Source: Halomarina pelagica (GTDB lineage: Archaea; Halobacteriota; Halobacteria; Halobacteriales; Haloarculaceae). From it: a DNA stretch of 64,000 nucleotides. The stretch is from NCBI RefSeq assembly GCF_024228315.1, contig NZ_CP100455.1, forward strand, positions 248,001 through 312,000, in the 5' to 3' direction. A program made the translations under genes and the position numbers. The notes beneath the pieces were generated by a model. It was not told the DNA's origin and searched no databases. It saw only the letters and a list, made by a program, of their open reading frames with translations. Positions 12,338 to 26,777 of this stretch are shown piece by piece (the first letter of the stretch is position 1; the number at the start of each line of letters is the position of its first letter).

Positions 12338-13738
12338 TCAGATCGGTCGGTCGAGGTGGGTGCCGTCGCCCGGTTCGCCGACGATCTCGCCGTCTTCGAA
12401 GGCGACCCGTCCGCGAACGATCGTGTGCGTCGGCCACCCCGTCATCTCTCTCCCCTCGTAGATCGAGTAATCGGCGGCACCCTGGAGAAGTTCCGGGGTG
12501 ACGGTCCTGGTGTCGTCGAGGTCGACGACGACGAGGTCGGCGTCGCTCCCCACGCGGATCGCTCCCTTCTTGGGGTAGAGGTTCCAGGCCTTCGCCGCGT
12601 TCGTACTCGTCACCTCGACCGCCCGCTCGAGCGACAGGCGGCCCGCGTTCACCCCCTCCGACAGGATCAACGGCAACATGGTCGAACTGGACGGGAAGCC
12701 GAGCGCGCTGTCGCGGATGCCGTCGCCGAGTTTGGTCTCGGTCAGGTTCGCGCAATGGTCGGTGCCGATACAGTCGATGGTGCCGTCGGCGAGTCGCTTC
12801 CACAGGGTCTCCTGGTCGTCTCCTCCGCGAACCGGTGGGTTGACCTTCATTCGCTCGTCGCACTCCTCGGTCGTCAGGGTGAGGTAGTGGGGGCAGGTTT
12901 CGCCCCAGAGACGGTAGCCGGCGGCTCTGAGGGCGGCGAGTTCGTCGGCGGTGCGTCCCGAGGAGATGTGGACGGCGTAGAAGTTCTCGTCGTAGTCGTG
13001 GCACTTCGCGAGCGCCGCGCCCGCGACCATGCTCTGGGTCTCCGCGTACCCGGGGAACTCCTCTACCATCACCTCGTATCCCTCGTCGGCGTCGACCTCG
13101 GCGTCGCCGGACTCGGAGGTGACGTAGACGTTCCCCCCCGCGAGCGCGTTCGTGATCTCGACGTTTTCGGAGTGATAGCCGAGCGTCGTCGGCACGTCCT
13201 GCGCGGCGAGCGTCCTTACGAAGGCGTCGCCGAAGTCGTCGAGCATGTCGCAGTCGACGCCGAACTTGTCGGCGGCGGCGTACTTGTAGTTCATGTACCA
13301 CTTGAACGAGGTGATGCCCAGTTCGTTCACGATGTAGGGGATCTCCTCGACGTGCTCGAACGAGAGCAGTCCGAGCGAGAAGAAGTAGTCGTGGTAGTAG
13401 TTCGCCTCGGCCTCGGCGAAGTACCCGTCCATGATGTCGGCGTAGGCCCCCGGCCGGCGGAAGTAGTTCCCGATGGTCGTCACGCCCCCGACGAGGTCCG
13501 AGCGGGATTCGCTCTCGGCGTCCGCTTCGAGACCGCGGTAGATGCCGTGGTGGGTGTGGGGGTCGATGGCTCCGGGGAGGACGTGGTTACCGGTGGCGTC
13601 GACGACGCGGTCGCCGGTCAGCGAGTTGGGGCGGGCGATCGCCGAGACGACGCCGTCGTCGGCGGCGACGTCCGCGCGGAGCGTACCCTGATCGGGCGTC
13701 ACCACCGTCCCGTTGCGCACCACGAGATCGTGACTCAT
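12338..13738 (-). CDS. Dihydropyrimidinase / cyclic-imidase-like amidohydrolase, cassette 1
   Basis: This 466-residue cytosolic zinc amidohydrolase hydrolyses cyclic amide rings in related enzymes (dihydropyrimidines, hydantoins, imides, allantoin). All expected metal ligands are present: H61 and H63 in IDPHTHHG, the carboxylated Lys K146 in TSFKWY, H189 in LGYHSENVE, H257 in AVHISSG and D327 in IGTDHCA. The C-terminal NLYPKKGAIRVGSDADLVVV is the family end of the barrel. Its start overlaps the stop of the upstream amidase gene (ATGA), so the two are translated together. It shares three blocks of identical DNA with the cassette 2 copy (17307-18671). The exact substrate is unknown. Confidence 0.88.
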   Translation of the reverse strand: MSHDLVVRNGTVVTPDQGTLRADVAADDGVVSAIARPNSLTGDRVVDATGNHVLPGAIDPHTHHGIYRGLEADAESESRSDLVGGVTTIGNYFRRPGAYADIMDGYFAEAEANYYHDYFFSLGLLSFEHVEEIPYIVNELGITSFKWYMNYKYAAADKFGVDCDMLDDFGDAFVRTLAAQDVPTTLGYHSENVEITNALAGGNVYVTSESGDAEVDADEGYEVMVEEFPGYAETQSMVAGAALAKCHDYDENFYAVHISSGRTADELAALRAAGYRLWGETCPHYLTLTTEECDERMKVNPPVRGGDDQETLWKRLADGTIDCIGTDHCANLTETKLGDGIRDSALGFPSSSTMLPLILSEGVNAGRLSLERAVEVTSTNAAKAWNLYPKKGAIRVGSDADLVVVDLDDTRTVTPELLQGAADYSIYEGREMTGWPTHTIVRGRVAFEDGEIVGEPGDGTHLDRPI

Positions 13739-14406
13739 TCGAGCGCCCCCATCTCGTCGAGGTAGGACTTCACCTCGTCGACCTCGAGTACCTCGGCGTA
13801 CTTCATCCAGAGGTCGAGCAGCCCGATCCGGTGCGACGCCTCGATGCGGTCGAAGACGCACTCCTGCGGGAGGACCACGTTGAACCCGTTCGACTGCGCG
13901 TCGACCGCGGTCGCGCGGACGCAGCCGGACGTCGAGTTGCCGACGATGACCACGGTGTCGACGTCCGAACGAATGAGCCGCGAGAGTAGGTCCGTCCCGT
14001 AGAACGCGCTCGCGTAGGACTTCTCGATCACCGCGTCGCCCTCCCGCGGCGCGATGGGTTCGACGATCTCGAGGTCCGGATGGTCGGGGTCGTCGTAGCT
14101 CGACGGGACGACCCGCGTGTAGGTGATCGGGATGTCGTTTCCGCGGGCGAACCCGAGGAACGGCTCCATGTGATCGATGGCCCGCCACGCGACCTCGCCC
14201 ATCGCCGTCCGGTACTCCTCGACGGCCTCGAGGATGGGAACGTCCTCCCCGACGATGAGCCGTTGCATGTCGATGACGAGCACCATCGGGTTCTCGCCGA
14301 GCCCACGCGATTCCCACGATGACGCCCCTTCCTTGTCGTAGCCGGCCTTCGTGATGACCTGCCTGTCCCGTTCGGTCAACAGGTCCTCCCAGATTCGCTC
14401 AGTCAT
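13735..14406 (-). CDS. Isochorismatase-family amidase (half-amidase / N-carbamoyl amidase-like), cassette 1
   Basis: This 223-residue cysteine hydrolase of the isochorismatase fold has the catalytic triad D46 (VLVIDMQR), K129 (VIEKSYASAFYG) and C162 (NSTSGCVRATAVDA). The YASAFYGTDL and STSGCVRAT patterns are those of N-carbamoylsarcosine amidase and maleamate amidohydrolase (NicF), enzymes that release ammonia from an open-chain amide or carbamoyl group. A roughly 40-residue N-terminal extension (MTERIWEDLLTERDRQVI) is shared with the cassette 3 copy. It would act after the ring opening by the overlapping amidohydrolase. A minus-strand TATA-like TTTTATACC lies about 40 bp before the start. 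Confidence 0.88.
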   Translation of the reverse strand: MTERIWEDLLTERDRQVITKAGYDKEGASSWESRGLGENPMVLVIDMQRLIVGEDVPILEAVEEYRTAMGEVAWRAIDHMEPFLGFARGNDIPITYTRVVPSSYDDPDHPDLEIVEPIAPREGDAVIEKSYASAFYGTDLLSRLIRSDVDTVVIVGNSTSGCVRATAVDAQSNGFNVVLPQECVFDRIEASHRIGLLDLWMKYAEVLEVDEVKSYLDEMGALE

Positions 14407-14463
14407 GGGTGATAATCACAATCGAGTTCGGACGGCAGGCGGTATAAAATTTCGTACCCGCTC

Positions 14464-14525
14464 GTCCCCGGGGACGGGAGGTGACGGGAGGTGATGGGAC
14501 GAGACGGGATGGGAGGGGACGAGAC
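14464..14525. repeat. Pentanucleotide repeat tract (GACGR/GAGGK) and 12-bp palindrome
   Basis: A perfect palindrome GTCCCCGGGGAC (14464-14475) runs into a tract of about eleven 5-bp units from 14473 to 14525: GACGG, GAGGT, GACGG, GAGGT, GATGG, GACGA, GACGG, GATGG, GAGGG, GACGA, GACG. It lies between the divergent starts of the amidase (14406, minus) and the flavoprotein (14595, plus). A tract of the same pentamer on the opposite strand lies at 35630-35680. Confidence 0.6.
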
Positions 14526-14562
14526 GCCGAACGCTCGGCCGGGTAGCGGGAGGTGTACGATA

Positions 14563-14570
14563 CGTTTACA
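14563..14570 (+). promoter_or_regulatory. TATA-like box of the flavoprotein gene
   Basis: CGTTTACA is centred about 28 bp before the ATG at 14595. This is the spacing of a haloarchaeal TATA box to a leaderless transcript, and it supports 14595 over the upstream in-frame ATG at 14553. Confidence 0.55.
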
Positions 14571-14594
14571 ATCCCCGAACGCGGCGGGAGATAC

Positions 14595-16028
14595 ATGAGC
14601 GAGGCCGAACAGCCGACTATCGACGACGACAGGGAGGAGGTCGTCCCCGCCTCGGCGGTCGAGTGGGACGTGGAGACGGACGTGCTCGTCGCGGGCGCGG
14701 GGGGCACGGGGCTCGTCGCGGCGCTCGCGGCCTGCGAGGACCCCGACCTCACGGTGACCGTACTGGAGAAGGCCCCCGAGCCCGGCGGGAACACCGCGCT
14801 CTCGACGGGGATGGTCCCCGCGGCCGGGACGCGACTCCAGCGGGAGAAGGGGATCGAGGAGACGCCCGAGGACATGGCTCGCGACATCATGGAGAAGAAC
14901 GGCCACCAGGCCGACGAGGGGATGGTCCTCCACCTCGCCCGCGAGAGCGCGAACCTCGTTCACTGGCTCGTCGACTGGGGTGTCACCCTCCACCTCGTGG
15001 ACGACTTCAAGTACCCGAAACACTCGGAGTTCCGGATGCACGCTCCCGAGGGGAACAACGGCGCGAACCTCGTCGCGGAACTCGTCGACCTCCTGCGGGC
15101 TCGCCCCAACGTGGAACTCCTCACGAACGCCCCCGTCACCAGGCTCGTCGCGGAGGACGGCGTCGTCGTCGGTGTCGTCGCGGGCGACCGCCGCGAGGAG
15201 GTCATTCGCGCGAGGAAGGTCGTCCTCGCGACCGACGGGTTCGGCGGCAACCGACGGATGATCCGCGAGTACTGCGAGGAGGAGATCGACGACGCGCTCT
15301 ACTTCGGAGCGGACGGCAACACGGGCGACGGCATCCGGTTCGGAGCCGACCTCGGCGGCGAACTCGCCTACATGGACGCCTACCAGGGTCACGCGACGGT
15401 CGCGCGGGACACCGGGGCGCTCTCGACGTACGCCGTCGTGATGAACGGCGGGATCCTCGTCAACGAGGACGGCGAGCGGTTCGGCGACGAGTCGGCCGGC
15501 TACTCCGAGTTCGCCGTCGACGTGCTCCGCCAGCCGGGCGGCGTCGCCTACGAGATCTTCGACGAGCGCATCTTCGAGCGGCTCCGGGGCCAGTTCGACG
15601 ACTTCGACGAGGCGGTGAAGCTCGGCGCGTACGCCGAGGCCGACACCGTCGCGGACCTCTGTGCCCGCCTCGGTTGTGCCGCCGAGCCGACCGAGGCGTC
15701 GGTCGAGGCGTACAACGCGGCGGTCGAGGCCGGCGAACCGGACGAAGTCGGTCGCACCGACGGCGTCCACACGCTCTCCCCGCCGTTCTACGGAACCCGG
15801 GTGACGGGCGCGCTGTTCCACACCCAGGGCGGTCTGGTCGTCGACGAGCACGCCCGCGTCCTCCGCGAGGACGGGACGACGGTCGGAAACCTCTACGCCG
15901 GGGGTGGCGTCGCCTGCGGCGTCAGCGGTCACGGGGCCGGCGGGTACCTCTCGGGGAACGGCCTGACGGCCGCGCTCGGACTCGGTCGACTGGCGGGGAT
16001 CCACGCCCGCGAATCGCTCACGGAATAG
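14595..16028 (+). CDS. FAD-dependent oxidoreductase (fumarate reductase/succinate dehydrogenase flavoprotein family)
   Basis: This is a 477-residue soluble flavoprotein. The dinucleotide fold VLVAGAGGTGLVAALAA is at about residues 30-46, followed by VLEKAPEPGGNTALSTG, the flavin-contact segment of the FrdA/3-ketosteroid dehydrogenase/urocanate reductase group. The C-terminus has NLYAGGGVACGVSGHGAGGY, which completes the FAD site. It lacks a Tat signal, so it is cytosolic, and it has no partner iron-sulfur gene. In the island it could desaturate or reduce a ring or a C=C bond next to a carbonyl. It stands between cassettes 1 and 2 and faces the opposite way. Confidence 0.87.
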   Translation: MSEAEQPTIDDDREEVVPASAVEWDVETDVLVAGAGGTGLVAALAACEDPDLTVTVLEKAPEPGGNTALSTGMVPAAGTRLQREKGIEETPEDMARDIMEKNGHQADEGMVLHLARESANLVHWLVDWGVTLHLVDDFKYPKHSEFRMHAPEGNNGANLVAELVDLLRARPNVELLTNAPVTRLVAEDGVVVGVVAGDRREEVIRARKVVLATDGFGGNRRMIREYCEEEIDDALYFGADGNTGDGIRFGADLGGELAYMDAYQGHATVARDTGALSTYAVVMNGGILVNEDGERFGDESAGYSEFAVDVLRQPGGVAYEIFDERIFERLRGQFDDFDEAVKLGAYAEADTVADLCARLGCAAEPTEASVEAYNAAVEAGEPDEVGRTDGVHTLSPPFYGTRVTGALFHTQGGLVVDEHARVLREDGTTVGNLYAGGGVACGVSGHGAGGYLSGNGLTAALGLGRLAGIHARESLTE

Positions 16029-16049
16029 GTCGCACGGAATCGGTCGTGA

Positions 16050-17261
16050 TCACCGCACCTCGTTCGGCAGCCGCGTCCCGAGCAGCAGCGCGACGGTCGC
16101 GACCCCGGCCAGGAGGAGAAACGCCTCGTCGAACAGCCCCGCGTCCGCGAGCGATCCCACGAGCACCGGTCCCCCGGCCGCGAGCACGAGGTAGGCCGTT
16201 CGTATCAGGCCGAACCCGCTTCCCTGCACCGTGTCGGGCAGGACGGCGATGGCGTGGGCGTTGGCGACCGGCCAGAACCCGAGTTGAACGCCGAGCAGAA
16301 CGGTAACCCCCGCCAGCGCGACGGCGTCGTCGAACACCGGGAGCAGGGCGAGCGCCCCGATGGTGACGAGGGTGGCGGCGAGCAGCGTCGTCTTCGTTCC
16401 GAGGCGGTCGCTGGCCGCACCCGCGAGCGGCTGGACGACCACGCCCGTGGCGAAGAAGAGCCCGTAGAGCGCGGCCGCGGTGCCGTCGGGGAGCTGCTTG
16501 GCGGTGACGAGATACGTGGGATAGAAGCTCGTGAACCCCTGGTACACGAGCGACATCGTGAACATCATCCCGGCGACGAGCAGCGGGACGGGTCGGAGGA
16601 CGCCCGCCAGCGCCGTCCGAATCGAGCGTCCGTCGTCCGCCGAAACTACCGGATGAGTGCGCTGGGGGACCGTCAACCACAGGCCGACGGCGGTGGCCGC
16701 GAACGGGAGGGCGATGACGCCGAGTCCGCCGCGCCAGCCGAGAGCCGTGGCGGCCAGGAGGCCGGCGACGACCGGGAGCACCGCGGTCCCCACGTTGCCC
16801 GCCGCTTGACTGAGGCCGATGGCGGTCGCCGTGACGCGGGGGTACACGTCCGACATGATGGTCATCCGGGTCGTCGAGTAGAGGCCGGTACCGACGCCGA
16901 AGACGACCGTTCCGGCGACGAACGAGCCGACGTCGGGGGCCAGCGCGGCGATCGCGACCCCGACCGTCGAGACGACCGTGCTCGCCGCCAGCGTCGCCCG
17001 CTCGCCGACGCGATCGCCGAGCAGACCGCCGGGAAACTGCGAGACGGCGTAGGCGATCCACAGCGCGGTGAGCACCAGGCCGGCCCCCGTGAGATCGAGC
17101 CCGAGTCCGACCCGTATCCGGGGGAGCAACGCCGGGAAGACGAGCCGCGTCCCGATGGAGAGCAACCACCCGAGGGTGACGGCGAGAAACAGCCACCCGC
17201 GGCCCTCGCCGCGTAGCTGGCTCACGACCTCCCGAACGGAGCCGTGAACGTCGTCTACCAC
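16050..17261 (-). CDS. Major facilitator superfamily transporter
   Basis: This 403-residue membrane protein has about twelve hydrophobic helices. The loop between helices 2 and 3 reads QFPGGLLGDRVGERA, the MFS signature region (GxLxDRxGxR), and a second copy after the middle reads AGAASDRLGTKT. Residues PYP-like VYPRVTATAIGLSQAAGNVG fit the helix 4-5 region. It lies 45 bp after the cassette 2 amidohydrolase on the same strand, so it is probably the last gene of that operon and imports the cassette substrate or exports a product. Confidence 0.88.
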   Translation of the reverse strand: MVDDVHGSVREVVSQLRGEGRGWLFLAVTLGWLLSIGTRLVFPALLPRIRVGLGLDLTGAGLVLTALWIAYAVSQFPGGLLGDRVGERATLAASTVVSTVGVAIAALAPDVGSFVAGTVVFGVGTGLYSTTRMTIMSDVYPRVTATAIGLSQAAGNVGTAVLPVVAGLLAATALGWRGGLGVIALPFAATAVGLWLTVPQRTHPVVSADDGRSIRTALAGVLRPVPLLVAGMMFTMSLVYQGFTSFYPTYLVTAKQLPDGTAAALYGLFFATGVVVQPLAGAASDRLGTKTTLLAATLVTIGALALLPVFDDAVALAGVTVLLGVQLGFWPVANAHAIAVLPDTVQGSGFGLIRTAYLVLAAGGPVLVGSLADAGLFDEAFLLLAGVATVALLLGTRLPNEVR

Positions 17262-17306
17262 GGGGTCCCCTCACCCCCGACGGTCGGCGTGACGATTCGG
17301 ACCACG

Positions 17307-18671
17307 TCAGACGGGTCGGTCGACGTGGGTGCCGTCGCCCGGTTCGCCGACGACCTCGCCGTCTTCGAAGGCGACCCGCCCGCGAACGACCGTGTGCGTC
17401 GGCCACCCCGTCACCTCCATCCCCTCGTAGATCGAGTAGTCCGCACCGCTCTGCAGGAGGTCGGGGGTGACGGTCCTGGTGTCGTCGAGGTCGACGACGA
17501 CGAGGTCGGCGTCGCTCCCCACGCGGATCGCTCCCTTCTTGGGGTAGAGGTTCCAGGCCTTCGCCGCGTTCGTACTCGTCACCTCGACCGCTCGCTCCAG
17601 CGATAGTCGCCCCGCGTTCACCCCCTCCGACAGCACCAGCGGTAACATCGTCTGCGTGCCCGAGAACGCGAGCTTCGTCTCCCAGATGTCGTCGCCCAGT
17701 TTCTCGTCGAGCGTGTTACAGACGTGATCGGTGCCGACGCAGTCGATGGTGCCGTCGGCGAGCCGCGCCCACAGCGTTTCGCGATCCTCCGCCCCGCGCA
17801 TCGGGGGCGTCACCTTCATCCGGGCGTCACACTCGTCGGCCGTGTAGACGAGGTAGTGGGGGCAGGTTTCGCCCCAGAGACGGTAGCCGGCGGCTCTGAG
17901 GGCGGCGAGTTCGTCGGCGGTGCGTCCCGAGGAGATGTGGACGGCGTAGAAGTTCTCGTCGTAGTCGTGGCACTTCGCGAGCGCTGCACCCGCGACCATG
18001 CTCTGGGTCTCCGCGTACCCGGGGTACCGTTCGCGCAGGGCGTGGTAGTCGGCGTCCGGGTCGCCGGGATCCAGCAACGACCGCGTGATCTCGGCGTTCT
18101 CCGCGTGGTAGCCGAGCGTCGTCGGCACGTCCTGCGCGGCGAGCGCCTGAATCATCCCGTCGCCGACGTCGTCCAGCAGGTAGTCGTCGAGGCCGAACTT
18201 CTCCCGCGTCATGAACTTGTAGAGGGCGTACCACTTGAACGAGGTGATGCCCAGTTCGTTCACGATGTAGGGGATCTCCTCGACGTGGTCGTGCGAGAGG
18301 ATACCGAGCGTGTAGAAGTAGTCGTGGTAACTGTTCGCCTCGCTCCGCTCGACGTAGTCGGCCATGATCTCGGGGTAGGACCCCGGCCGGCGGAAGATGT
18401 TCCCGACGGTCGTCACGCCCCCGACGAGGTCTCCGCGGGTCTCCGTCTCGTGGTCGAGCGCGTAGTCCCGGTACAGGCCGTAGTGAACGTGCGGGTCGAT
18501 GGCTCCGGGGAGGACGTGGTTGCCGGTGGCGTCGACGACGTGCTCGCCGGTCAGCGAGTTGGGGCGGGCGATCGCCGAGACGACGCCGTCGTCGGCGGCG
18601 ACGTCCGCGCGGAGCGTACCCTGATCGGGCGTCACCACCGTCCCGTTGCACACCACCAGGTCGTGGCTCAC
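17307..18671 (-). CDS. Dihydropyrimidinase / cyclic-imidase-like amidohydrolase, cassette 2
   Basis: This 454-residue paralogue of the cassette 1 enzyme keeps all zinc ligands: H61 and H63 (IDPHVHYG), K146 (TSFKWY), H189 (LGYHAENAE), H245 (AVHISSG) and D315 (VGTDHVC). It starts at a GTG overlapping the amidase stop (GTGA). Blocks at 17464-17591, 17850-17984 and 18544-18649 are identical base for base to 12495-12622, 12881-13015 and 13611-13716. Substrate-facing segments such as residues 195-215 and 315-325 differ strongly. The pattern suggests duplication followed by diversification of specificity, with gene conversion keeping the scaffold alike. Confidence 0.88.
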   Translation of the reverse strand: MSHDLVVCNGTVVTPDQGTLRADVAADDGVVSAIARPNSLTGEHVVDATGNHVLPGAIDPHVHYGLYRDYALDHETETRGDLVGGVTTVGNIFRRPGSYPEIMADYVERSEANSYHDYFYTLGILSHDHVEEIPYIVNELGITSFKWYALYKFMTREKFGLDDYLLDDVGDGMIQALAAQDVPTTLGYHAENAEITRSLLDPGDPDADYHALRERYPGYAETQSMVAGAALAKCHDYDENFYAVHISSGRTADELAALRAAGYRLWGETCPHYLVYTADECDARMKVTPPMRGAEDRETLWARLADGTIDCVGTDHVCNTLDEKLGDDIWETKLAFSGTQTMLPLVLSEGVNAGRLSLERAVEVTSTNAAKAWNLYPKKGAIRVGSDADLVVVDLDDTRTVTPDLLQSGADYSIYEGMEVTGWPTHTVVRGRVAFEDGEVVGEPGDGTHVDRPV

Positions 18672-19324
18672 GCCGCCACCTCCCGGAAGTAGGCCTGCAC
18701 GTCCGCGGTCGACCACACCTGTCCGTACCGCTCGTCGATGTCGACCAGCGCGACGGCGGTGGACGCCTGCACCCGGTCGAAGACGCACTCGCGTGGCGTG
18801 AGGACGGCGAATCCTAACTCCGCGGCGTCGAGCGCCGTCGATCGGACGCAACCGCTCGCCGAACAGCCGAGGACGACGACGGTGTCCACGCCGCGTCGGA
18901 CCAGCCGCGAGACGAGGTCGGTCCCGTAGAAGGCGCTGGAGTACGACTTGTCGAGCACGAGATCGCCCTCGTGCGGCGTCGCCTCGTCGACGATCCGGAC
19001 GTCGCGGGCGGTGAGCCCGCTCCTGGCTCCCGGAATCACGCGCGTGTAGGCGATCGGTACGCCGCACTCGCGGGCGACCGAGAGCAGCGGGAGGACGTGA
19101 TCGAGCGCCCGGTACGCGACCTCGCCCATCGCCGTCCGGTACTCCTCGACGGCCTCGGGGATGGGGACGTCCCGGCCGAACAAGTGTCGCTGGAGGTCGA
19201 TCGCCAGTACCATCGGGCTCTCGCCCGGACTGCGCCGGGGGGTGAGCCCCGGCAGCGGTTTCTCGGTCGTCGCGGCGAGTACCTCACGGTCGCTCGCGGC
19301 GAGGACGGGGTCTCGCTCGCACAT
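18668..19324 (-). CDS. Isochorismatase-family amidase, cassette 2
   Basis: This is a 218-residue paralogue of the cassette 1 amidase with triad D43 (VLAIDLQR), K126 (LVLDKSYSSAFYG) and C159 (GCSASGCVRSTALDA). It ends at GTGA, overlapping the next amidohydrolase gene. The N-terminal extension is diverged and shorter than in copies 1 and 3. A minus-strand TATA-like CTTATTAC at about 19359-19366 lies about 40 bp upstream, so it may be read from its own promoter as well as from the CoA-transferase/CitE genes 60 bp upstream. Confidence 0.87.
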   Translation of the reverse strand: MCERDPVLAASDREVLAATTEKPLPGLTPRRSPGESPMVLAIDLQRHLFGRDVPIPEAVEEYRTAMGEVAYRALDHVLPLLSVARECGVPIAYTRVIPGARSGLTARDVRIVDEATPHEGDLVLDKSYSSAFYGTDLVSRLVRRGVDTVVVLGCSASGCVRSTALDAAELGFAVLTPRECVFDRVQASTAVALVDIDERYGQVWSTADVQAYFREVAA

Positions 19325-19384: not shown

Positions 19385-20245
19385 TCACGAGCGGGCTCCG
19401 AGCGCCTCGGCGCGGGCGACGAGTCGTCGATAGCGCTCCACGATCGCCTCGTCCAGGAAGACGCCGTCGTGGACGAACGCGCCGCGGTCGGACGCCTCGT
19501 ACGCCGCGACGTGCGCTCGCGCCGCGTCGACCGCCGCGTCGTCGGGCGTGAACACCTCGTTGACGGCGGCGACCTGATCCGGGTGGATGACGGACTGTCC
19601 GACGAATCCGAGTTCGACTGCGCGTTCCGCCACCACCCGCAGTCGGTCGGTGTCGTTCACGTCGGGGAACACCGACGAGATCGGCTGGAGGCCGCCGATG
19701 GCCGCGAACCCGACGATGCGGTGGTTCAGGAACTCGCGGATCCGGTCGGACGTCGGTTCGCCGCCGGTCGCACGTGCGTAGTCCCCGACGCCGAAGGAGA
19801 GGGCCGTCACCTCCCGGTGTCGACCGGCGACCGCCGCGATGGCCCGCCCGTCGAAGACGCCCTCGGGCGATTCGAGCAGGAGGATCAGTTCGGGCGGCTC
19901 GTCGGTCAGCCGTCGTACCGCCGAGACGACCTGCACGACCGCCTCCGGCGTCTCTACCGACGGTACCGTCACCGTGTCGACTCCCGCCTCGACGGCGGTC
20001 TCGAGATCGGCGCGCCAATCGTCGGTCCCGACGGCGTTTATCCGGGTCGCGATCTCGGTCGTCCCGAAGTCGACGGCGGCGAGTATCGCCCGAAGGTTCT
20101 CGCGAGCCGCCGGCCTGTCCTCGGGGCGAACGGCGTCTTCCAGGTCGAACGTGATCGCGTCGGAGTCGGCGTTCGCGGCCTTCTCCATCATGTCGGGCGC
20201 GTCGGCCGGCGTGTAGAGGAATGACCGACGGAGGCGGTCAACCAA
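19385..20245 (-). CDS. CitE-like HpcH/HpaI family lyase (malyl-/citramalyl-CoA lyase type)
   Basis: This 286-residue TIM-barrel lyase has the N-terminal SFLYTPADAPDMMEKA and AITFDLEDAV, metal-binding Glu in ILLLESPEG and Asp in LSFGVGDYA, and the C-terminal SVIHPDQVAAVNEVFTP, all typical of CitE/malyl-CoA lyases. Free-standing CitE-like proteins cleave 3-hydroxyacyl-CoAs such as malyl-, methylmalyl- or citramalyl-CoA into an acyl-CoA plus glyoxylate or pyruvate. It starts 8 bp inside the end of the family III CoA-transferase, so activation and cleavage are probably successive steps. The exact substrate is not readable from sequence. Confidence 0.87.
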   Translation of the reverse strand: MVDRLRRSFLYTPADAPDMMEKAANADSDAITFDLEDAVRPEDRPAARENLRAILAAVDFGTTEIATRINAVGTDDWRADLETAVEAGVDTVTVPSVETPEAVVQVVSAVRRLTDEPPELILLLESPEGVFDGRAIAAVAGRHREVTALSFGVGDYARATGGEPTSDRIREFLNHRIVGFAAIGGLQPISSVFPDVNDTDRLRVVAERAVELGFVGQSVIHPDQVAAVNEVFTPDDAAVDAARAHVAAYEASDRGAFVHDGVFLDEAIVERYRRLVARAEALGARS

Positions 20246-21437
20246 GCCGAACCACCCCCCGGGACGCGAGTTCCTCCACGTCCGCCTCCGAGAGGCCCGC
20301 CCGGTCGGTCAACACCGCCATCGTGTCGGCTCCGAGCGCCCGCCCCGCGTGTTCGATCCCGCCGGGGGTCTCCGACAGCTTCGGGACGACCCCCGGCAGC
20401 ACGAGGTTCGGGTAGTCGTCGTCGGGGACGCGTTCGAGCGCCCCGCGCTCCCAGAAGTAGGCGTCCTCGAAGATGTCCGCCGTGTCGTAGACCGGGCCGA
20501 TGGCCGCCTCGTGTTCCTCGAACACCCGGAGCACCTCCTCGCGATCGCGCTCCGCCATCCACTCGGCGATGATCGCGTCGAGTTCGTCGCCGTGTTCGAG
20601 TCGCCCGGACGCCGTGGCGAATCGAGGGTCCTCGGCGAGGTCGTCGCCGCCCACCGCCCGGAGGATGCGCCCGGCGACGGTCTCGGCGCTCCCCGAGATG
20701 GCGACCCAGCGGCCGTCCCTCGTCCGATAGGTGTTCCGGGGCGCGGAGTAGGCGCTTCGGTTGCCAGTCCGGGTCTTCACCGTCCCGTTCACGCCGTAGT
20801 CGACCGTCAGCCGCCCCATGATGGAGAACAGCGGTTCGACGAGGCTCGTGTCGATACACTGCCCCCCGCCGTCGTTGACGTCCCGGTGGTAGAGCGCGAA
20901 CATCGCGGCCCACGTCGAGTAACAGGCGGCGACCGCGTCAGCGAGTCCGAGCGAGGGCAGCGTCGGGGGTTTGTCGGGGAACCCCGTTACCTCGGCGAAC
21001 CCCGACATCGCCTCCGCGAGGGTGCCGAACCCCGGGCGTTCTCGATAGGGACCGGTCTGCCCGAATCCGCTCGTGCGGACCATGACGAGGCCGGGGTTGA
21101 CCTCGCTGAGCGCCTCCCAGCCGAGCCCCCAGCGCTCCATCGTCCCCGGGCGGAACCCCTCGACGAGGACGTCGGCGGAGGCGACGAGCCTCTCGAACGC
21201 TTCGGCACCGTCGGGGTCGCTCAGATCGAGGCCGACGCTCCGCTTGTTCCGCCCCAGCCACTTCCACGAGAGTTCCTGCCCCTCCCGGCCGAAGTTCCGG
21301 ATGGAGTCGCCGTACTCGGGGTGTTCGACCTTGATGACGTCCGCGCCGAAGTCGGCCATGAACGTCGCGGCCATCGGGCCGGCGATGAGCGTCGCGCAGT
21401 CTATCACCGTGACGTCCGCAAGCGGCTTGGTAGCCAT
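20238..21437 (-). CDS. CaiB/BaiF family III CoA-transferase A
   Basis: This 399-residue enzyme moves CoA between carboxylates. It has the N-terminal ADVTVIDCATLIAGPMAAT, VIKVEHPEYGD, GRNKRSVGLDL and the segment LPSLGLADAVAACYS, whose Asp aligns with the catalytic Asp of the family. The start at 21437 is set by a minus-strand TATA-like CTTTATC at 21462-21468, 28 bp upstream, and the extension to 21563 is rejected. It leads the minus-strand operon CoA-transferase, CitE, amidase, amidohydrolase, MFS, and is probably what activates the dicarboxylate made by the amidase. It is closest in layout to the transferase at 45569, sharing SAPRN-YRT and FGTLAEAMSGFA. Confidence 0.88.
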   Translation of the reverse strand: MATKPLADVTVIDCATLIAGPMAATFMADFGADVIKVEHPEYGDSIRNFGREGQELSWKWLGRNKRSVGLDLSDPDGAEAFERLVASADVLVEGFRPGTMERWGLGWEALSEVNPGLVMVRTSGFGQTGPYRERPGFGTLAEAMSGFAEVTGFPDKPPTLPSLGLADAVAACYSTWAAMFALYHRDVNDGGGQCIDTSLVEPLFSIMGRLTVDYGVNGTVKTRTGNRSAYSAPRNTYRTRDGRWVAISGSAETVAGRILRAVGGDDLAEDPRFATASGRLEHGDELDAIIAEWMAERDREEVLRVFEEHEAAIGPVYDTADIFEDAYFWERGALERVPDDDYPNLVLPGVVPKLSETPGGIEHAGRALGADTMAVLTDRAGLSEADVEELASRGVVRLG

Positions 21438-21468: not shown

Positions 21469-21520
21469 CGTTCGCCGCTGCGCACACTCTCCCCCTCGCC
21501 ACGCCCGCCTCCCGTGACAA

Positions 21521-21530
21521 CACTTTTGCC
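21521..21530 (+). promoter_or_regulatory. TATA-like box for the plus-strand operon
   Basis: CACTTTTGCC is centred about 30 bp before the ATG at 21557, in a region with no other AT-rich stretch. It would drive the long plus-strand unit from 21557 to 31852. This box is weaker than its minus-strand counterpart. Confidence 0.4.
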
Positions 21531-21556
21531 GTCGCCCGACCGACCGACACCGCCGT

Positions 21557-21931
21557 ATGTCACCCGTACACACCCCGAGGGAGGTCGCGGAGGAGTTCTT
21601 CGCCCGCATGGAGGACGACCGCCGCGAGACGGTCGGTGAACTGTTCGCCGCCGACGCCGTGATCACGGTCCCCGGCGCGCGTTTCGACGGGCCGGACGCG
21701 GCCGACGCGCTGCTCGAGCACCTCGCCCCCCGGTACGACTGGGCGGCCAAGCGGTTCGACCGCTGGATCGAGACCGACACCGAGGTCGTGAGCATCGGTA
21801 CGCTCTACGGCGTCGACGGCGACGGCGAGGAGTTCTCCGGCGTCCGCTACGTCGACGTCTACGAGGTCGAGGACGGTCGAATCCGGCGCGTCGACATCTG
21901 GAACGACCTGGCCGTCGACGGGGTCGTATGA
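21557..21931 (+). CDS. SnoaL/NTF2-like small protein
   Basis: This 124-residue protein has the NTF2-like/SnoaL fold pattern: VAEEFFARMEDDRRETVGEL helices, LFAADAVITVPG, a central FDGPDAADALLEHL and the final YVDVYEVEDGRIRRVDIWND strands. The family includes polyketide cyclases, ketosteroid isomerases and many small-molecule-binding proteins. It is the first gene of the plus-strand operon and ends with an ATGA overlap with the luciferase-like monooxygenase, so it may assist that enzyme. No catalytic Asp/His pair can be assigned with confidence. Confidence 0.8.
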   Translation: MSPVHTPREVAEEFFARMEDDRRETVGELFAADAVITVPGARFDGPDAADALLEHLAPRYDWAAKRFDRWIETDTEVVSIGTLYGVDGDGEEFSGVRYVDVYEVEDGRIRRVDIWNDLAVDGVV

Positions 21932-22911
21932 CCCGAACCGGCGTCCTGTTCTCGCTCACCGACGACCTGGATCTCGTGCGGCGGGCGGAGGCGTACGGCT
22001 ACGAGAGCGTCTGGGCCGCGGAGGGCCAGGGGAAGACGGCGTTCGGGAAGCTCGAACGCTGGGCGACCGCGACCGATCGGATCGGGCTCGCGACGGGTAT
22101 CGTGAACGTGTTTTCGCGGACGCCGGCCGGGCTGGCGCAGGCGGCGGCGACGCTGGACGCGCACTCCGAGGGCCGGGCGATTCTGGGCCTCGGGGTCGCC
22201 CACCCGGGAGTCGTGGAAGACTTCCACGGCGTCCCCTTCGACCGGCCGCTCGACCGCCTCCACGAGTACGTCGAACTCGTTCGGTGGTACCTCCGCGGTG
22301 ACGGTGAGCCGTTCGAGGGTGTGTTTTTTTCGCCGTCGCGGCCGCGGTTCTGGGGGGCGTTCGAGCCGGTGCGTCGGGAGATCCCGATCTACAACGCGGC
22401 GCTCGGCCCCGCGAACGTCCGCCTCACCGGACAGGTCGCCGACGGCTGGCTGCCGAACCTCTACCCGACGTCTCAGTTCGAGGAGGCGATGGGATGGCTA
22501 GAGACCGGCGCTGAACGCGCCGGGCGGGATCCGGACGACATCGACGTCGCGATGTACGTACTCACCGTCCCCGACGACGACCGCGAGGCGGCGCGTCGTC
22601 GGGCCGCCGAACACGTCGCCTACTACCTGCGCGACCTCCCCGGCTACTACGATCGGCCGGCCGAGGCGGCCGGGTTCGCCGACGAGGTGGCGAGCGTGAA
22701 GGCCGCCGGATCGACGGCCGAGGGGGCGCGGCGGATCAGCGACGCCCTCGTCGACGCCCTGGCCGTCGCCGGGACGCCCGACGAGTGTCGCGACCGGATC
22801 GACCGCCTCCGCGTGGCGGGCGTCGACCTCCCCATCGTCCGGGCCCCGTCGGGCGCGAGTCGCGCCCTCGAGGAACGGGTGCTGGAGACGTTCGCACCGG
22901 AGGGCGCATGA
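21928..22911 (+). CDS. LLM-class flavin/F420-dependent oxidoreductase
   Basis: This 327-residue TIM-barrel enzyme is of the bacterial-luciferase-like superfamily. Segments are SLTDDLDLVRRAEAYGYESV, TDRIGLATGIVNVFSRTP, RAILGLGVAHPGVVEDFHG, IYNAALGPANVRLTGQVADG and a C-terminal AGTPDECRDRI. The pattern GLAT-GIVNVFSRTP and PANVRLTG fits archaeal and actinobacterial F420-dependent members such as methylenetetrahydromethanopterin reductase relatives. Haloarchaea make F420. It overlaps both neighbours by ATGA. An internally deleted copy lies at 33615-34025. It may oxidise or reduce an island intermediate. Confidence 0.87.
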   Translation: MTRTGVLFSLTDDLDLVRRAEAYGYESVWAAEGQGKTAFGKLERWATATDRIGLATGIVNVFSRTPAGLAQAAATLDAHSEGRAILGLGVAHPGVVEDFHGVPFDRPLDRLHEYVELVRWYLRGDGEPFEGVFFSPSRPRFWGAFEPVRREIPIYNAALGPANVRLTGQVADGWLPNLYPTSQFEEAMGWLETGAERAGRDPDDIDVAMYVLTVPDDDREAARRRAAEHVAYYLRDLPGYYDRPAEAAGFADEVASVKAAGSTAEGARRISDALVDALAVAGTPDECRDRIDRLRVAGVDLPIVRAPSGASRALEERVLETFAPEGA

Positions 22912-24284
22912 CCGAACTCAGGTGTCTCTCGCTCAACGGGCTGATGCACGGCAACGGGTTCCCGACGGCGTCGCTGGACGCCGGTCTCGACCGCGATCCG
23001 CACTTCGTGGGCGTCGACGCCGGTTCGACCGACGGCGGCCCCTACTTCCTCGGCTCCGGCGAGAATATGCACTCCTCGCGCCGGGCCGTGAAACAGGTCT
23101 ACCGGACGCTCCTCACGCGGTGTCTCGACGCCGACGTCCCCCTCCTCGTCGGGTCCGCGGCGACCGCCGGGGCGGACGTACACGTCGACTGGACCGCCGC
23201 CCTCGTCCGCGAGATCGCCGCCGCGGAGGGGCTCGCGTTCGATCTGGGGATCGTCTACTGCGAGCAGTCGATCGGCGACCTGGTCGCGGCGATCGAGTCG
23301 GGACGCACCGAACCGCTCGACGAGTCGCCGCCGCTGGACGTGGCGACCGTCGAGGCGGCCGAGCGGGTCGTGGCGATGGCCGGCCCCGAGGTGTTCGTCG
23401 AGGCGCTCGACCGAGGTGCGGACGTCGTCGTGGCGGGCCGGTGCTCGGACGTCGCCATCTACAAGGCGATGGCCGTCCGGGAGGGGCTTCACGAGGGGCT
23501 GGCGACGCACCTCGCGAAGACCATCGAGTGCGGGGGACTCATCGCAACGCCGCGGGGCGGCGACTGCGTCCTCGGGACGCTCACCGACGACGCGTTCACC
23601 GTCACGCCGACGAACCCCGCGAAGCGGACCGACCCGCTCACGGTCGCGTCCCACCTGCTGTACGAGACGGCCGACCCGACCCGGTTCGTCGAGCCGCGGG
23701 GCGTCCTCCACACGGGAGACGCGACGTACGACGCGGTCGACGACCGAACCGTCCGCGTCACCGGTTCGAGGTTCCAGCGGGCCGACGACTACACGGTGAA
23801 GCTAGAGGGAGCGCGGGAGGTGGGCCACCGGGGCGTAGCGACCGCCGGCATCCGCGATCCGACCGCCGTCGCGGAGCTGGACGCCCTGCTGACCGCCGCT
23901 CGAACGGCCGTCGACGAGAAGGCGTCGCGACTCGGGCTGGCGACCCACGCGTTCTCCATCGACGTCCGGGTGTACGGCCGCGACGGGGTGATGGGCGGCC
24001 GCGAGCCGACCCCCGACGCGGGCCACGAGGTCGGCCTGTTCGTCGAGGCCGTCGCGCCGGACGCGGGGACGGTCGACGACCTGCTCGAGGAGTTCACGTA
24101 CGCGCTGTTCGTGAGCGACTTCCCCGGACGACGGACGACGGCCGGCAACGCCGCGTTCCCGACGTCGCCGGCACACGCCCCCGTCGGCCCGGCGTACGAG
24201 TTCTCCGTCTGGCACCGCCTGCGAGTCGCTGATCCGCTCGACCCCGTCCGTATCGAGGTCGAGCGCGTGGGGGGATCCGCGTGA
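22908..24284 (+). CDS. AtuA family protein (acyclic terpene utilization / DUF1446)
   Basis: This 458-residue soluble protein has the AtuA pattern: GSTDGGPYFLGSG at about residues 40-52, then VPLLVGSAATAGADVHVDW, DVVVAGRCSDVAIYKAM, THLAKTIECGGLIAT and a C-terminal SDFPGRRTTAGN segment. AtuA is required for acyclic terpene catabolism in Pseudomonas, but its reaction is not established and family members occur in many other gene clusters. It is translationally coupled to its neighbours by ATGA upstream and GTGA downstream, and is followed by DUF4387, its usual partner. No terpene-specific carboxylase is present, so a terpene role is not supported here. Confidence 0.85.
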   Translation: MTELRCLSLNGLMHGNGFPTASLDAGLDRDPHFVGVDAGSTDGGPYFLGSGENMHSSRRAVKQVYRTLLTRCLDADVPLLVGSAATAGADVHVDWTAALVREIAAAEGLAFDLGIVYCEQSIGDLVAAIESGRTEPLDESPPLDVATVEAAERVVAMAGPEVFVEALDRGADVVVAGRCSDVAIYKAMAVREGLHEGLATHLAKTIECGGLIATPRGGDCVLGTLTDDAFTVTPTNPAKRTDPLTVASHLLYETADPTRFVEPRGVLHTGDATYDAVDDRTVRVTGSRFQRADDYTVKLEGAREVGHRGVATAGIRDPTAVAELDALLTAARTAVDEKASRLGLATHAFSIDVRVYGRDGVMGGREPTPDAGHEVGLFVEAVAPDAGTVDDLLEEFTYALFVSDFPGRRTTAGNAAFPTSPAHAPVGPAYEFSVWHRLRVADPLDPVRIEVERVGGSA

Positions 24285-24592
24285 GACTCGGTGCCCTCGC
24301 GGACGTGGTCCGCAGCAAGAACGCCGGCATCCACTACGTCACCGTCGACGTGATGTTCCGAGATCGACGGACGTTCGAGGCGGTGCGGGACTCGGGCGTC
24401 CTCTCGGCGGCGACGGTCGCGGACCGGTACGGGCTCCCGGTCGACGACGTCCGGTTTTTCGTCTACGAGCCCGGTCTCGCGTTCAAGGCCACGTTCCCCC
24501 GCGCCCACATCGCCGGCAGCCCCGGCGATCCCGACCTCTACGGCGCACAGCAACACGCCCCGTTGCTGGACGTCGAGGTCCCGATCGAGTAG
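24281..24592 (+). CDS. DUF4387 family protein
   Basis: This 103-residue protein starts at a GTG overlapping the stop of the AtuA gene. The sequence LGALADVVRSKNAGIHYVTV, the Y-G-L-P-V-DDVRFFVYEP stretch and the end with ISGSPGDPDLYGAQQHAPLL-like residues match DUF4387. That small domain is often fused to or encoded next to AtuA/DUF1446 proteins, so the two probably form one complex. The reaction is unknown. Confidence 0.85.
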   Translation: MRLGALADVVRSKNAGIHYVTVDVMFRDRRTFEAVRDSGVLSAATVADRYGLPVDDVRFFVYEPGLAFKATFPRAHIAGSPGDPDLYGAQQHAPLLDVEVPIE

Positions 24593-24649
24593 TCAGCCGT
24601 CTATCGGGACACCCGTAGCCTTTTGAACAGGTACCGCGCATAGTCCTCT

Positions 24650-26044
24650 ATGCCAACGAGTACCGTAGATCTCGTCGTGCGTAACGCTCGGGTGGTAACG
24701 CCGTCCGGGACGATCCGTGGCGGGGTCGCCTGCGACGATGGGGTCGTCGTCGGAGTCGGGGGCGATGCGACGCTGCCGGCCGGCGAGGTGGAGGTCGACG
24801 CGGAGGGGAACGTCTGTATCCCGGGGCTGGTGGATCCGCACGTCCACCTCGGTCGTCGCGACGCGGGCTACCCCGATCAGCTCGAGGTGGACTTCGAAAC
24901 GGAGACGCGGGGGGCCGTTCACGGCGGCGTCACCTGTCTGCTCAACTTCGTCGAGCAGGAAGGTCACTACGTTCCCGACCTCGACTTCTTCCGCGACGTC
25001 GGCGAAGCGAACTCCTACGTCGACTTCGGCTACCACATGGTGATGAGCCACGAACACCACATCGACGAGGTCCCCGCCCTCGCCGCGGCCGGCGTGAAGT
25101 CGTTCAAGATGTTCTTCAACATGTACAAATACACGGACATAGACATCGAGCCCTGCGAGGCCGACCGGGTCGAGCGCGTCCTCTCTCAGGTGGCCGAGAT
25201 CCCGGGGGCGGTCGGGATGTTCCACGCGGAGAACGCCGAACTCCAGAGGGAGTGTGAGCGGGCGGCCCGCGACTCCGGCCGTCACGATCTCCGGGCGTGG
25301 GCCGACGCCTCTCCCCCCGAGGCGGAGGCGATGCAGATCGATCAGATCGGTCACCTCACCCGGTTCACCGACGCCGACTCCTACGTCGTCCACGTCTCCA
25401 GCGCGCAGGGCGTCGAGGCGGTCGAGCGCTGGCAGCGGCGGGGCGTCCAGGTCACCGGCGAGACGCTCGTGACGTTCCTCGCCAACACCGTCGAGGACGA
25501 CCTCGGCGTCTGGGGGAAGGTGTCGCCCCCGCTACGAACCCCACGGCATCAGGAGGCGCTGTGGGCCGCGCTCCGCCGCGGCGTCATCGACAACGTCGGT
25601 ACCGACCACATCGCGACGAGCAAGGAGCAGCACGAACTGGGACGGGGACAGCACGGGCCGCACCTCTGGGAGGCCCCGCCGGGCATCCAGCCGGGGATGG
25701 AGTTCCTCCTGCCGATGATGCTCACCGAGGGATACAACAGGAACCGGATCACGATGGAACGGCTGGTCGAGGTCTGCGCCACGAACAACGCGAAGCGATT
25801 CGGGCTCTACCCGCGGAAGGGGGTGATCGCCCCCGGGTCGGACGCCGACCTCGTGGTCGTCGACACGGACGCGACCGCGACTATCGACGACGACTTCTTC
25901 CACACCCGCGAGCCGCGGTGGTCGTCGGTCCACGGTCGCGACGTGCGGGGCCTGCCGACGCACACGATCGTCGGCGGCGAACTCGCCGTCGCGGACGGCG
26001 AACTGCTGGTCGAGAAGGGCGGACGCGAGTTCCTCGCCCGCTGA
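24650..26044 (+). CDS. Dihydropyrimidinase / cyclic-imidase-like amidohydrolase, cassette 3
   Basis: This 464-residue third member of the amidohydrolase set has ligands H64 and H66 (VDPHVHLG), K153 (KSFKMFFNMYK), H192 (GMFHAENAE), H248 (VVHVSSA) and D319 (VGTDHIA). It is more diverged from copies 1 and 2 than they are from each other and shares no long identical DNA with them. A TATA-like TTTTGAA at about 24621-24627 is 27 bp before the ATG, giving the cassette a possible internal promoter. It is followed by its amidase after 64 bp, so the gene order is the reverse of cassettes 1 and 2. Confidence 0.88.
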   Translation: MPTSTVDLVVRNARVVTPSGTIRGGVACDDGVVVGVGGDATLPAGEVEVDAEGNVCIPGLVDPHVHLGRRDAGYPDQLEVDFETETRGAVHGGVTCLLNFVEQEGHYVPDLDFFRDVGEANSYVDFGYHMVMSHEHHIDEVPALAAAGVKSFKMFFNMYKYTDIDIEPCEADRVERVLSQVAEIPGAVGMFHAENAELQRECERAARDSGRHDLRAWADASPPEAEAMQIDQIGHLTRFTDADSYVVHVSSAQGVEAVERWQRRGVQVTGETLVTFLANTVEDDLGVWGKVSPPLRTPRHQEALWAALRRGVIDNVGTDHIATSKEQHELGRGQHGPHLWEAPPGIQPGMEFLLPMMLTEGYNRNRITMERLVEVCATNNAKRFGLYPRKGVIAPGSDADLVVVDTDATATIDDDFFHTREPRWSSVHGRDVRGLPTHTIVGGELAVADGELLVEKGGREFLAR

Positions 26045-26108
26045 CCCGCTCGCCCCCGTCGGACCGACCGCAACGGTAACGTACGACCCACGAGAGGTGT
26101 ACGCACGT

Positions 26109-26777
26109 ATGACCGAGAGACCCTGGGAGACCCTGCTGTCCGACCGCGACCGCGAGGTCATCGAGGCGGCCGGCTACGACACTCGCGGTGCGTCGAACTG
26201 GGACACGCGCGGCGTCGGAACGTCCCCGATGGTGCTCGTCATCGACATGCAACGCGTCACCGTCGGCGCGGACGTTCCGATCGTCGAGGCCGTCGAGGAG
26301 TCGCGCATCGCGATGGGCGAGGTCGCCCATCGGGCGCTCGAACACATCGTCCTGTTCGTCGAGTTCGCCCGCGAGCGGGGGATACCGGTGACGCACGCCC
26401 GCGTCGTCCCGCCGGCGTACGACCCCGACGATCCCGAGGTCCAGTTCGTCGACGCGCTGACCCCGCGAGAGGGCGAGCAGGTGATCGAGAAGCGCTACGC
26501 GAGCGCGTTCTTCGGCACCGACCTCGTCGCCCGACTCGTCCGGGCGGGCGTCGACACCCTGGTCGTCGTCGGCAACACGACCAGCGGCTGTCTCCGCGCG
26601 ACCGTCGTCGACGCCCAGCAGTTCGGGTTCAAGGTGTTGCTCCCCCAGGAGTGCGTCTTCGACCGGATCGACCTCTCACACCGCGTCAACCTCCTGGACA
26701 TGTGGATGAAGTACGCCGACGTCCGACCGACCGAGGAGATACGCGAGCTGCTGGCCGCCCTCGACGGGGACCGATGA
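26109..26777 (+). CDS. Isochorismatase-family amidase, cassette 3
   Basis: This is a 222-residue amidase with triad D46 (VLVIDMQR), K128 (VIEKRYASAFFG) and C161 (NTTSGCLRATVVDA). The N-terminal extension MTERPWETLLSDRDREVIEA closely follows that of cassette 1, and the C-terminus (LLPQECVFDRIDLSHRVNLL) is nearly the same too. I chose 26109 over 26097 because the family extension begins with MTER. It overlaps the next gene by ATGA, linking amide hydrolysis to the CoA ligase. Confidence 0.88.
   Translation: MTERPWETLLSDRDREVIEAAGYDTRGASNWDTRGVGTSPMVLVIDMQRVTVGADVPIVEAVEESRIAMGEVAHRALEHIVLFVEFARERGIPVTHARVVPPAYDPDDPEVQFVDALTPREGEQVIEKRYASAFFGTDLVARLVRAGVDTLVVVGNTTSGCLRATVVDAQQFGFKVLLPQECVFDRIDLSHRVNLLDMWMKYADVRPTEEIRELLAALDGDR

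Follow-up and report, generated by a model that had tools for sequence, protein, structure and literature searches.

What does a haloarchaeon do with three gene pairs, each encoding a dihydropyrimidinase-type metal amidohydrolase (hyd) and an isochorismatase-fold cysteine amidase (ich), within 15 kb of one another? The question is raised by a stretch of 64,000 nucleotides from Halomarina pelagica (contig NZ_CP100455.1, positions 248,001 to 312,000; here termed the window), which is part of contig 2 of a haloarchaeal assembly of 4.6 Mb. An initial annotation had described three paralogous cassettes with intact active sites, and direct reading of the genes confirms the observation: three intact pairs lie at the positions listed in Table 1, with overlaps of 4 bp between ich1 and hyd1 and between ich2 and hyd2, and with hyd3 placed before ich3 across a gap of 64 bp. 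The pairs had been treated as a unit of 15 kb ending at position 26777, but they prove to be part of something far larger, since they open a cluster of about 30 kb (12.3–42.7 kb) that is followed at 43.4–49.7 kb by a module of coenzyme A (CoA)-transferase, lyase and hydratase genes. We suggest that this cluster probably allows haloarchaea and some bacteria to import and consume small nitrogen-ring compounds, most likely cyclic imides. The narrower assignment, a catabolic locus for cyclic imides that are most likely C-substituted and five-membered (of the maleimide or succinimide type), is tentative, and we hold it at a little short of an even chance.

The hyd proteins are dihydropyrimidinase/hydantoinase-type enzymes, as judged from their sequences. 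All three have the binuclear site of the cyclic amidohydrolase family, that is, an HxH motif, a carbamylated lysine, two histidines and an aspartate (H61, H63, K146, H189, H257 and D327 in hyd1, where K146 is the family's carbamylated lysine), and these ligands are invariant in 16 of 16 haloarchaeal proteins and in 18 of 18 when bacterial ones are included. The best structure matches of the AlphaFold model of hyd1 (predicted local distance difference test score 92.2) are dihydropyrimidinases; for this model, 433 residues align with 3dc8 at a root-mean-square deviation of 1.9 (Z 50.8). Against the NCBIfam dihydropyrimidinase equivalog TIGR02033 (cut-off 393.25) the three proteins score 260.2, 266.4 and 267.6 bits. 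The ergothioneine-type hydantoin-5-propionate amidohydrolase ErtD (NF058538 and NF058539; cut-offs 600 and 650) was rejected as a candidate, the scores of 163–207 bits being far below. The closest solved relatives are D-hydantoinases and dihydropyrimidinases, which lends some support to an alternative in which hyd would produce N-carbamoyl amino acids by opening hydantoins or dihydropyrimidines, ich, as a carbamoylsarcosine-type amidase, would free ammonia and CO2 from these, and the resulting amino acids would be degraded by the neighbouring gene products. We consider this unlikely, though far from negligible, and return to it below.

The ich proteins fall among the isochorismatase-fold amidases, in the N-carbamoylsarcosine/maleamate amidohydrolase clade. 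Their triad (D46/K129/C162) is invariant in 14 of 14 proteins, ich2 and ich3 included, and in 26 of 26, so that the active sites of both enzymes are as intact as had been claimed and are unchanged in every relative aligned. The five best structures for the ich1 model are 4l08 (Z 26.2), 4l07 (26.1), 1nba (25.6), 3uao (25.3) and 3ot4 (25.1), where Z differences below 1 count as ties and a shared fold does not show function. Four of these entries represent two maleamate amidases, Ami (4l07, and 4l08 with bound maleate) and NicF (3uao and 3ot4), which superimpose over 183–192 residues at deviations of 1.8–1.9; the remaining one, 1nba, is N-carbamoylsarcosine amidohydrolase (201 residues, 2.1). The top five solved relatives in a profile search also all belong to this clade. 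It is these structure matches of ich1 that suggest a half-amide as its substrate. Two other assignments were rejected, with scores far below cut-off for all three proteins: the ureidoacrylate amidohydrolase RutB (TIGR03614, cut-off 377.95; 30.5, 42.8 and 31.2 bits), and with it a Rut-type uracil pathway, and the biuret amidohydrolase BiuH (NF050097, cut-off 370; 43.0, 41.4 and 44.9 bits).

Is the company kept by the pairs meaningful? A homolog of ich1 (E <= 1e-40) occurs in 10 of 146 genomes of the family, that of the window included, and three of these 10 have three homologs. The initial annotation had proposed a search for the three-pair layout elsewhere, and it was indeed found, in the same order and with nearly the same genes in between, in two further genomes, that of Halorarius litoreus BND22 (G066) and G143. 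The latter is without the major facilitator superfamily (MFS) transporter gene; the genes for the acyl-CoA synthetase and dehydrogenase follow LeuD2 in both genomes and not ich3. Such a homologous layout in the same order indicates that the arrangement is not due to chance. A wider scan with one genome per species, using 48 window proteins as queries, gave 59 loci, 31 haloarchaeal (from 28 genomes, many of them closely related) and 28 bacterial, and neighbours were counted within 10 kb of ich. Among the haloarchaeal loci hyd was matched in all 31, a CoA-transferase in 28, the LeuC-type hydratase in 27, a carbon–carbon lyase in 27, a luciferase-like (LLM class) enzyme in 28, a SnoaL-like protein and the flavin adenine dinucleotide (FAD)-binding oxidoreductase in 26 each, a PrpD family protein in 22 and the permease LivH in 18. 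The combination of hyd, LeuC-type hydratase and lyase was present in 26 of 31 haloarchaeal and 8 of 28 bacterial loci, and in none of five control loci formed by other isochorismatase-family genes of the same genome. In these controls, two of which are weak relatives with no match to the ich queries at the limit used, LeuC and a lyase were each absent (0/5) and hyd was seen once, about 4 kb from the amidase gene.

This recurrence bears on the idea that the pairs are broad-specificity nitrogen scavengers, lying by chance in a region rich in genes for acid degradation. Enzymes of both kinds are generally promiscuous and the carbon genes of the region are densely packed, but the same partner families recur in archaea and in several bacterial phyla while no control locus has a hydratase or lyase gene, and we regard such a coincidence as very improbable. 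Nor is the novelty limited to a three-cassette form in haloarchaea, since versions with one pair are frequent in haloarchaea and also occur in bacteria. No description of this cluster was recognised in a literature search whose coverage left out most subscription journals.

The bacterial loci (n=28) are more varied, with hyd matched in 17, LeuC in 17, a lyase in 12 and the LLM enzyme in none. In three loci of Bacilli read gene by gene (L068, L070 and L073), LeuD, LeuC, PrpD, FAD, ich, hyd and a Liv-type importer stand together, and on actinobacterial and acidobacterial contigs (L081, L082, L083 and L084) the gene order is ich-hyd-LeuC-LeuD-PrpB. Plasmids of Shinella (L101) and Antarctobacter (L102) have the aconitase AcnA and a PrpB-type lyase beside the pair. 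Since AcnA, a member of the same superfamily, there takes the place of LeuCD, a hydration step of the aconitase type is supported. The Antarctobacter plasmid also has annotated SnoaL and LLM genes near the pair, both of which our queries missed. A Hydrogenophaga plasmid has hyd-ich-PrpB, Methylobacterium nodulans (L119) a single run of PrpB, ich, Liv-type importer, PrpD, FAD, PrpD and hyd, and Variovorax a Liv-type importer, PrpD, FAD, PrpD, a GTPase gene, hyd and ich; neither the Methylobacterium nor the Variovorax stretch has an annotated LeuCD or AcnA. A Neorhizobium stretch (L105) has amidases and shows no hyd; an AtuA (DUF1446) gene lies near several of its isochorismatase-fold amidases, and AtuA and DUF4387 (window 22908–24592) recur near such amidases in Rhodobacterales (L089 and L090). 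Syntrophaceae and Desulfobacterales loci (L076:8407-9951 and L079:13602-15143) have no hyd match beside ich and another amidohydrolase instead, which in L076 resembles the TRZ/ATZ deaminase families. In Shinella (L101:17069-19349), hemC (hydroxymethylbilane synthase; 333 bits, cut-off 164) and a hemL-like aminotransferase gene (323 bits, cut-off 527) lie some 6–9 kb from the AcnA-hyd-ich genes. Among the genes listed for the stretches of Antarctobacter, Hydrogenophaga, Methylobacterium and Variovorax there is no hem gene, and the link is not relied upon.

From the gene content, the intact active sites and the conserved linkage, we infer the following reactions and their order. A Liv-type ATP-binding cassette (ABC) importer of five genes would take up the cyclic imide, which the hyd metal enzyme would open to a half-amide and the partner ich cysteine amidase would convert to a cis-dicarboxylate and ammonia. 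For an entry compound that is reduced or has the wrong isomeric form, saturation or stereochemistry may be adjusted by the FAD dehydrogenase and the PrpD proteins. The aconitase-family hydratase LeuCD would then add water to give a substituted malate, to be cleaved either directly by the PrpB-type lyase or, following CoA transfer by CaiB, by the HMGL- or CitE-type lyase, so that a keto acid such as pyruvate and an acid or acyl-CoA could enter central metabolism. The three pairs would differ in the ring substituents that they accept. Subfamily cut-offs of the aconitase family are exceeded by LeuC1 (450.6 bits; hacA_fam, 385.7) and by LeuD1 (195.3; LEUD_arch, 108.95), and the PrpB-type lyase clearly belongs to its superfamily while scoring 300.4 bits against methylisocitrate lyase TIGR02317 (cut-off 354.4).

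The logic of ring opening plus amide hydrolysis that the initial annotation had put forward is well supported. Of the two precedents that it named, imidase/half-amidase systems fit somewhat better than hydantoinase/carbamoylase systems, to which a smaller share of probability falls. An imide is preferred over a ureide mainly on account of the neighbours, that is, cis-dicarboxylate hydratases, CoA-transferases, three kinds of carbon–carbon lyase and no recognised remover of amino groups. The conserved neighbours come from families acting on CoA esters or on dicarboxylates that lack nitrogen. The 35 genes called between 12.3 and 49.7 kb (small open reading frames below the gene-calling limit are outside this set) include no recognised pyridoxal phosphate enzyme or ammonia-lyase, as would be expected if the product released by ich carries no nitrogen. 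The same absence, together with dicarboxylate hydratases, CoA-transferases and lyases as the recurrent partners, speaks against hydantoins as substrates.

Several observations weigh on the other side, and some of them favour the hydantoin alternative directly. By sequence, ich is most similar to N-carbamoylsarcosine amidohydrolase (95 bits, compared with 80 for maleamate amidases), which leads again in a profile comparison of ich1 (141 and 130 bits); the sixth structure match of ich1, close in Z at 24.7, is a cysteine hydrolase of no stated substrate. The FAD protein matches Pfam DAO as a secondary family (60.8 bits, cut-off 27.9), so that it might act as an amino-acid oxidase. Two bacterial versions have racemase-family genes nearby: at L083:982-2525 the first gene of a tandem of two matches Pfam Asp_Glu_race, the Asp/Glu/hydantoin-racemase family, with 107.6 bits, and two tandem genes at L119:16501-18047 in Methylobacterium are annotated as aspartate/glutamate racemase family. 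(The second gene of the L083 tandem is similar by eye to the first.) As this family also includes maleate isomerases, such genes are not decisive. The Shinella stretch has a class III aminotransferase gene. A gene for an amidase of the M20 carbamoylase family lies further along the window at 62575–63732, and another lies beside the related locus L064; the M20 gene was, however, matched in only 1 of 31 haloarchaeal and 0 of 28 bacterial loci. Linkage is also incomplete: five of the 31 haloarchaeal loci are without the full triple, among them the Halorarius three-pair locus (L036), where LeuC is further away, and three short stretches (L062, L063 and L065), while in bacteria hyd is unmatched in 11 of 28 loci and the triple in 20 of 28, a shortfall due in part to short contigs. 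None of hyd, ich, CitE, CaiB1 and PrpB reaches an NCBIfam equivalog cut-off, and PrpD, LLM, SnoaL and AtuA have no firm place in the imide scheme.

In a further alternative, the LLM and SnoaL proteins would first oxidise or reduce the ring of some other nitrogen heterocycle (a pyridine, pyrimidine or pyrrole derivative) and hyd-ich would act on a late lactam or imide intermediate. The frequency of the two genes in haloarchaea, their annotation near the Antarctobacter pair and a flavin-hydroxylase-like gene beside the Shinella pair are all consistent with it. The 35 genes, however, include no recognised ring-hydroxylating molybdenum enzyme or dioxygenase, and the lack of an LLM match in bacterial loci counts against it a little, the query being one that missed the Antarctobacter gene. 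We judge this alternative unlikely, slightly more so than the hydantoin one.

If the locus does handle cyclic imides, why are there three pairs? They are real, but they are not equal copies. hyd1 and hyd2 are 78% identical and hyd1 and hyd3 39%, whereas ich1 shares 52% with ich2 and 62% with ich3. In the hyd tree the path from hyd1 to hyd2 is 0.35 and that from hyd1 to hyd3 is 3.5 (with a warning from the tool of long branches meeting); in the ich tree ich1 and ich2 are 1.69 apart and ich3 lies 0.91 from the nearest ich1-type row (with many weak inner forks). Three tandem copies of one cassette can be rejected, the two trees being in disagreement. The divergence between ich1 and ich2 far exceeds that between hyd1 and hyd2, and an ancient hyd3 accompanies an ich3 that is nearer to ich1, so the pairs probably came together piece by piece. 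Stretches of exact identity between hyd1 and hyd2 measure 98, 135 and 128 nt in the window and 177 nt in G143, whereas orthologs of the window and G143 share no exact run over 34 nt. These long identical blocks point to repeated gene conversion in the window and in G143, with little in G066, where hyd1 and hyd2 share at most 36 nt and the hyd1 orthologs of G066 and G143, the closer genomes, share up to 65 nt.

Conversion appears to have spared the active face. At 27 protein positions hyd1 equals hyd2 inside the window and inside G143 while the genomes differ from each other, and none of these lies in the catalytic-end barrel loops, which make up 87 of 466 residues. Conversely, 22 of 63 hyd1/hyd2 differences fixed in the three genomes lie in these loops (Fisher p 0.0008, suggestive only, as the loop limits were set from the model's secondary structure after the alignment was seen), 11 of the 63 being deletion positions (201–212) counted outside the loops. 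Such a pattern is suggestive of selection for distinct specificities of hyd1 and hyd2. Of the two explanations offered for three intact copies, several related substrates are therefore favoured over several steps on one substrate.

Which imides might these be? Oxidation of chlorophyll and heme gives methyl maleimide, methyl ethyl maleimide, methyl vinyl maleimide and hematinic acid, according to PMC7318184, which refers to previous findings of maleimides and hematinic acid in leaves and lake sediments and describes its own leaf samples as having hematinic acid and no detected maleimides. A dedicated route for these mono-pyrrolic remains, with each pair serving a different maleimide, is improbable, but the ring-opened acids would suit LeuCD/PrpB chemistry well. 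Opened hematinic acid would be a methylated cis-homoaconitate, from which a homoaconitase-type LeuCD and the PrpB-type lyase could form pyruvate and glutarate; the latter is in keeping with succinate-glutarate CoA-transferase as nearest model of the neighbouring CoA-transferase. A further link to branched C5-dicarboxylates may be seen in the AtuA gene, as DUF1446 adjoins methylaspartate ammonia-lyase in enterobacterial glutamate-fermentation clusters according to PMC4682846.

Table 1. Genes of the three pairs and of the cluster around them, in window coordinates
Feature	Position	Strand	Remarks
hyd1	12338..13738	-	Dihydropyrimidinase/hydantoinase-type metal amidohydrolase
ich1	13735..14406	-	Isochorismatase-fold Cys amidase, N-carbamoylsarcosine/maleamate amidohydrolase clade
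FAD_binding_2 oxidoreductase	14595..16028	+	Flavocytochrome-c/tricarballylate-dehydrogenase-like; weaker overlapping Pfam DAO match
MFS transporter	16050..17261	-	
hyd2	17307..18671	-	Close paralog of hyd1, sequence-homogenised with it
ich2	18668..19324	-	Divergent amidase
HpcH/CitE lyase	19385..20245	-	Nearest NCBIfam model RipC (itaconate degradation C-C lyase), below cut-off
CoA-transferase family III (CaiB1)	20238..21437	-	Nearest models succinate-glutarate and mesaconate CoA-transferases, both below cut-off
SnoaL/NTF2-like small protein	21557..21931	+	
Luciferase-like (LLM class) flavin/F420 enzyme	21928..22911	+	
AtuA family (DUF1446)	22908..24284	+	
DUF4387	24287..24592	+	Adjoins AtuA
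hyd3	24650..26044	+	Ancient amidohydrolase paralog
ich3	26109..26777	+	Amidase
ADP-forming acyl-CoA synthetase	26774..28825	+	
Acyl-CoA dehydrogenase family	28877..30010	+	
LeuC1	30120..31361	+	Aconitase/homoaconitase-family hydratase large subunit
LeuD1	31358..31852	+	LeuD/DmdB-type small subunit
PrpB-type lyase	31877..32812	-	Methylisocitrate/2,3-dimethylmalate lyase superfamily
SDR dehydrogenase	32842..33618	-	
LivG and LivF ABC ATPases	34133..35628	+	Starts approximate
MmgE/PrpD 1	35685..36998	-	Start approximate
Liv-type solute-binding protein and permeases LivH, LivM	37234..40560	+	Solute-binding protein at 37234-38520
SDR dehydrogenase 2	40562..41329	+	
MmgE/PrpD 2	41345..42706	-	
CoA-transferase family III (2)	43407..44633	+	
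CoA-transferase family III (3), CaiB3	45569..46780	+	
HMG-CoA-lyase-family enzyme (HMGL)	46777..47730	+	
LeuC2	47867..49195	+	Hydratase large subunit
LeuD2	49192..49695	+	Hydratase small subunit; Haloferax counterpart annotated 3-isopropylmalate dehydratase small subunit

The 35 genes also include those for a universal stress protein and a metallo-beta-lactamase-fold protein. In many haloarchaeal loci a counterpart of CaiB3 directly follows a single ich-hyd pair. Within 45569–58315, CaiB3, HMGL, LeuC2, LeuD2 and several later genes are 88–96% identical to a plasmid of Halomarina halobia, a species of the same genus (strain PSR21, G051), where the counterparts of the four named genes adjoin a single hyd-ich pair; 12–43 kb resembles Halorarius and G143 most. 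The window gives the impression that a native cluster with one pair has recombined with an acquired cluster with three. Outside the cluster, the M20 hydantoinase/carbamoylase-family amidase gene stands beside that of an IclR-family regulator (61364–63732), possibly as a separate ureide system, and 1656–3911 encodes a nitric oxide reductase large subunit to which a NorB cytochrome c-like domain is fused (Pfam NorB_cytochrome_c-like and COX1).

Collectively, what had appeared as an isolated oddity becomes a conserved, testable catabolic module in two domains of life, and one genome supplies three natural versions of a cyclic amidohydrolase; gene conversion has kept two of these alike, the exceptions lying mainly in active-face segments. 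Were maleimides derived from tetrapyrroles to be the substrates, the locus would help to answer who consumes the nitrogen-ring end products of chlorophyll, and would represent a microbial end-route for tetrapyrrole carbon and nitrogen that is common to archaea and bacteria.

Known enzyme kinds are here brought together in a conserved pathway cluster that is apparently undescribed, and it resembles several established systems in part. The Rut pyrimidine pathway likewise combines a luciferase-like enzyme (RutA) with an isochorismatase-fold amidase (RutB), but the ich proteins are far from RutB and the cluster has a hyd enzyme and a dicarboxylate module instead. N-carbamoylsarcosine amidohydrolase (PDB 1nba and 26st) of creatinine degradation is the best sequence match of ich, yet the 35 genes include none recognised as belonging to a creatinine or sarcosine pathway. 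NicF and Ami are the maleamate amidases of nicotinate and nicotine degradation; they are among the closest structures to ich1 and share its Asp-Lys-Cys triad, whereas no preceding pyridine-ring gene was recognised among the 35 and the half-amide would be supplied by hyd. The classical route from nicotinate to maleamate was rejected for want of a ring-opening gene in this set, the rest of the genome not having been searched for one. Dimethylmaleate hydratase and 2,3-dimethylmalate lyase end nicotinate fermentation, and aconitase and PrpB end the methylcitrate cycle. The pairing of a LeuCD/DmdB-type or aconitase hydratase with a PrpB-type lyase recalls both, and the 2,3-dimethylmalate lyase structure 3fa3 was met in the comparison of the PrpB-type lyase; entry, however, would be through an amide-hydrolysing pair and not through enamidase and mutase, as for nicotinate, or methylcitrate synthase. 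Finally, in the bacterial pathways of imidase (cyclic-imide hydrolase) and half-amidase, a dihydropyrimidinase-type enzyme opens the ring and an amidase releases ammonia to leave a dicarboxylate, the very sequence of events and kind of product that we propose for hyd-ich. Unlike these, hyd-ich is genetically tied to an importer, an aconitase-family hydratase and carbon–carbon lyases, it is found in archaea, and in three genomes it is present as three pairs.

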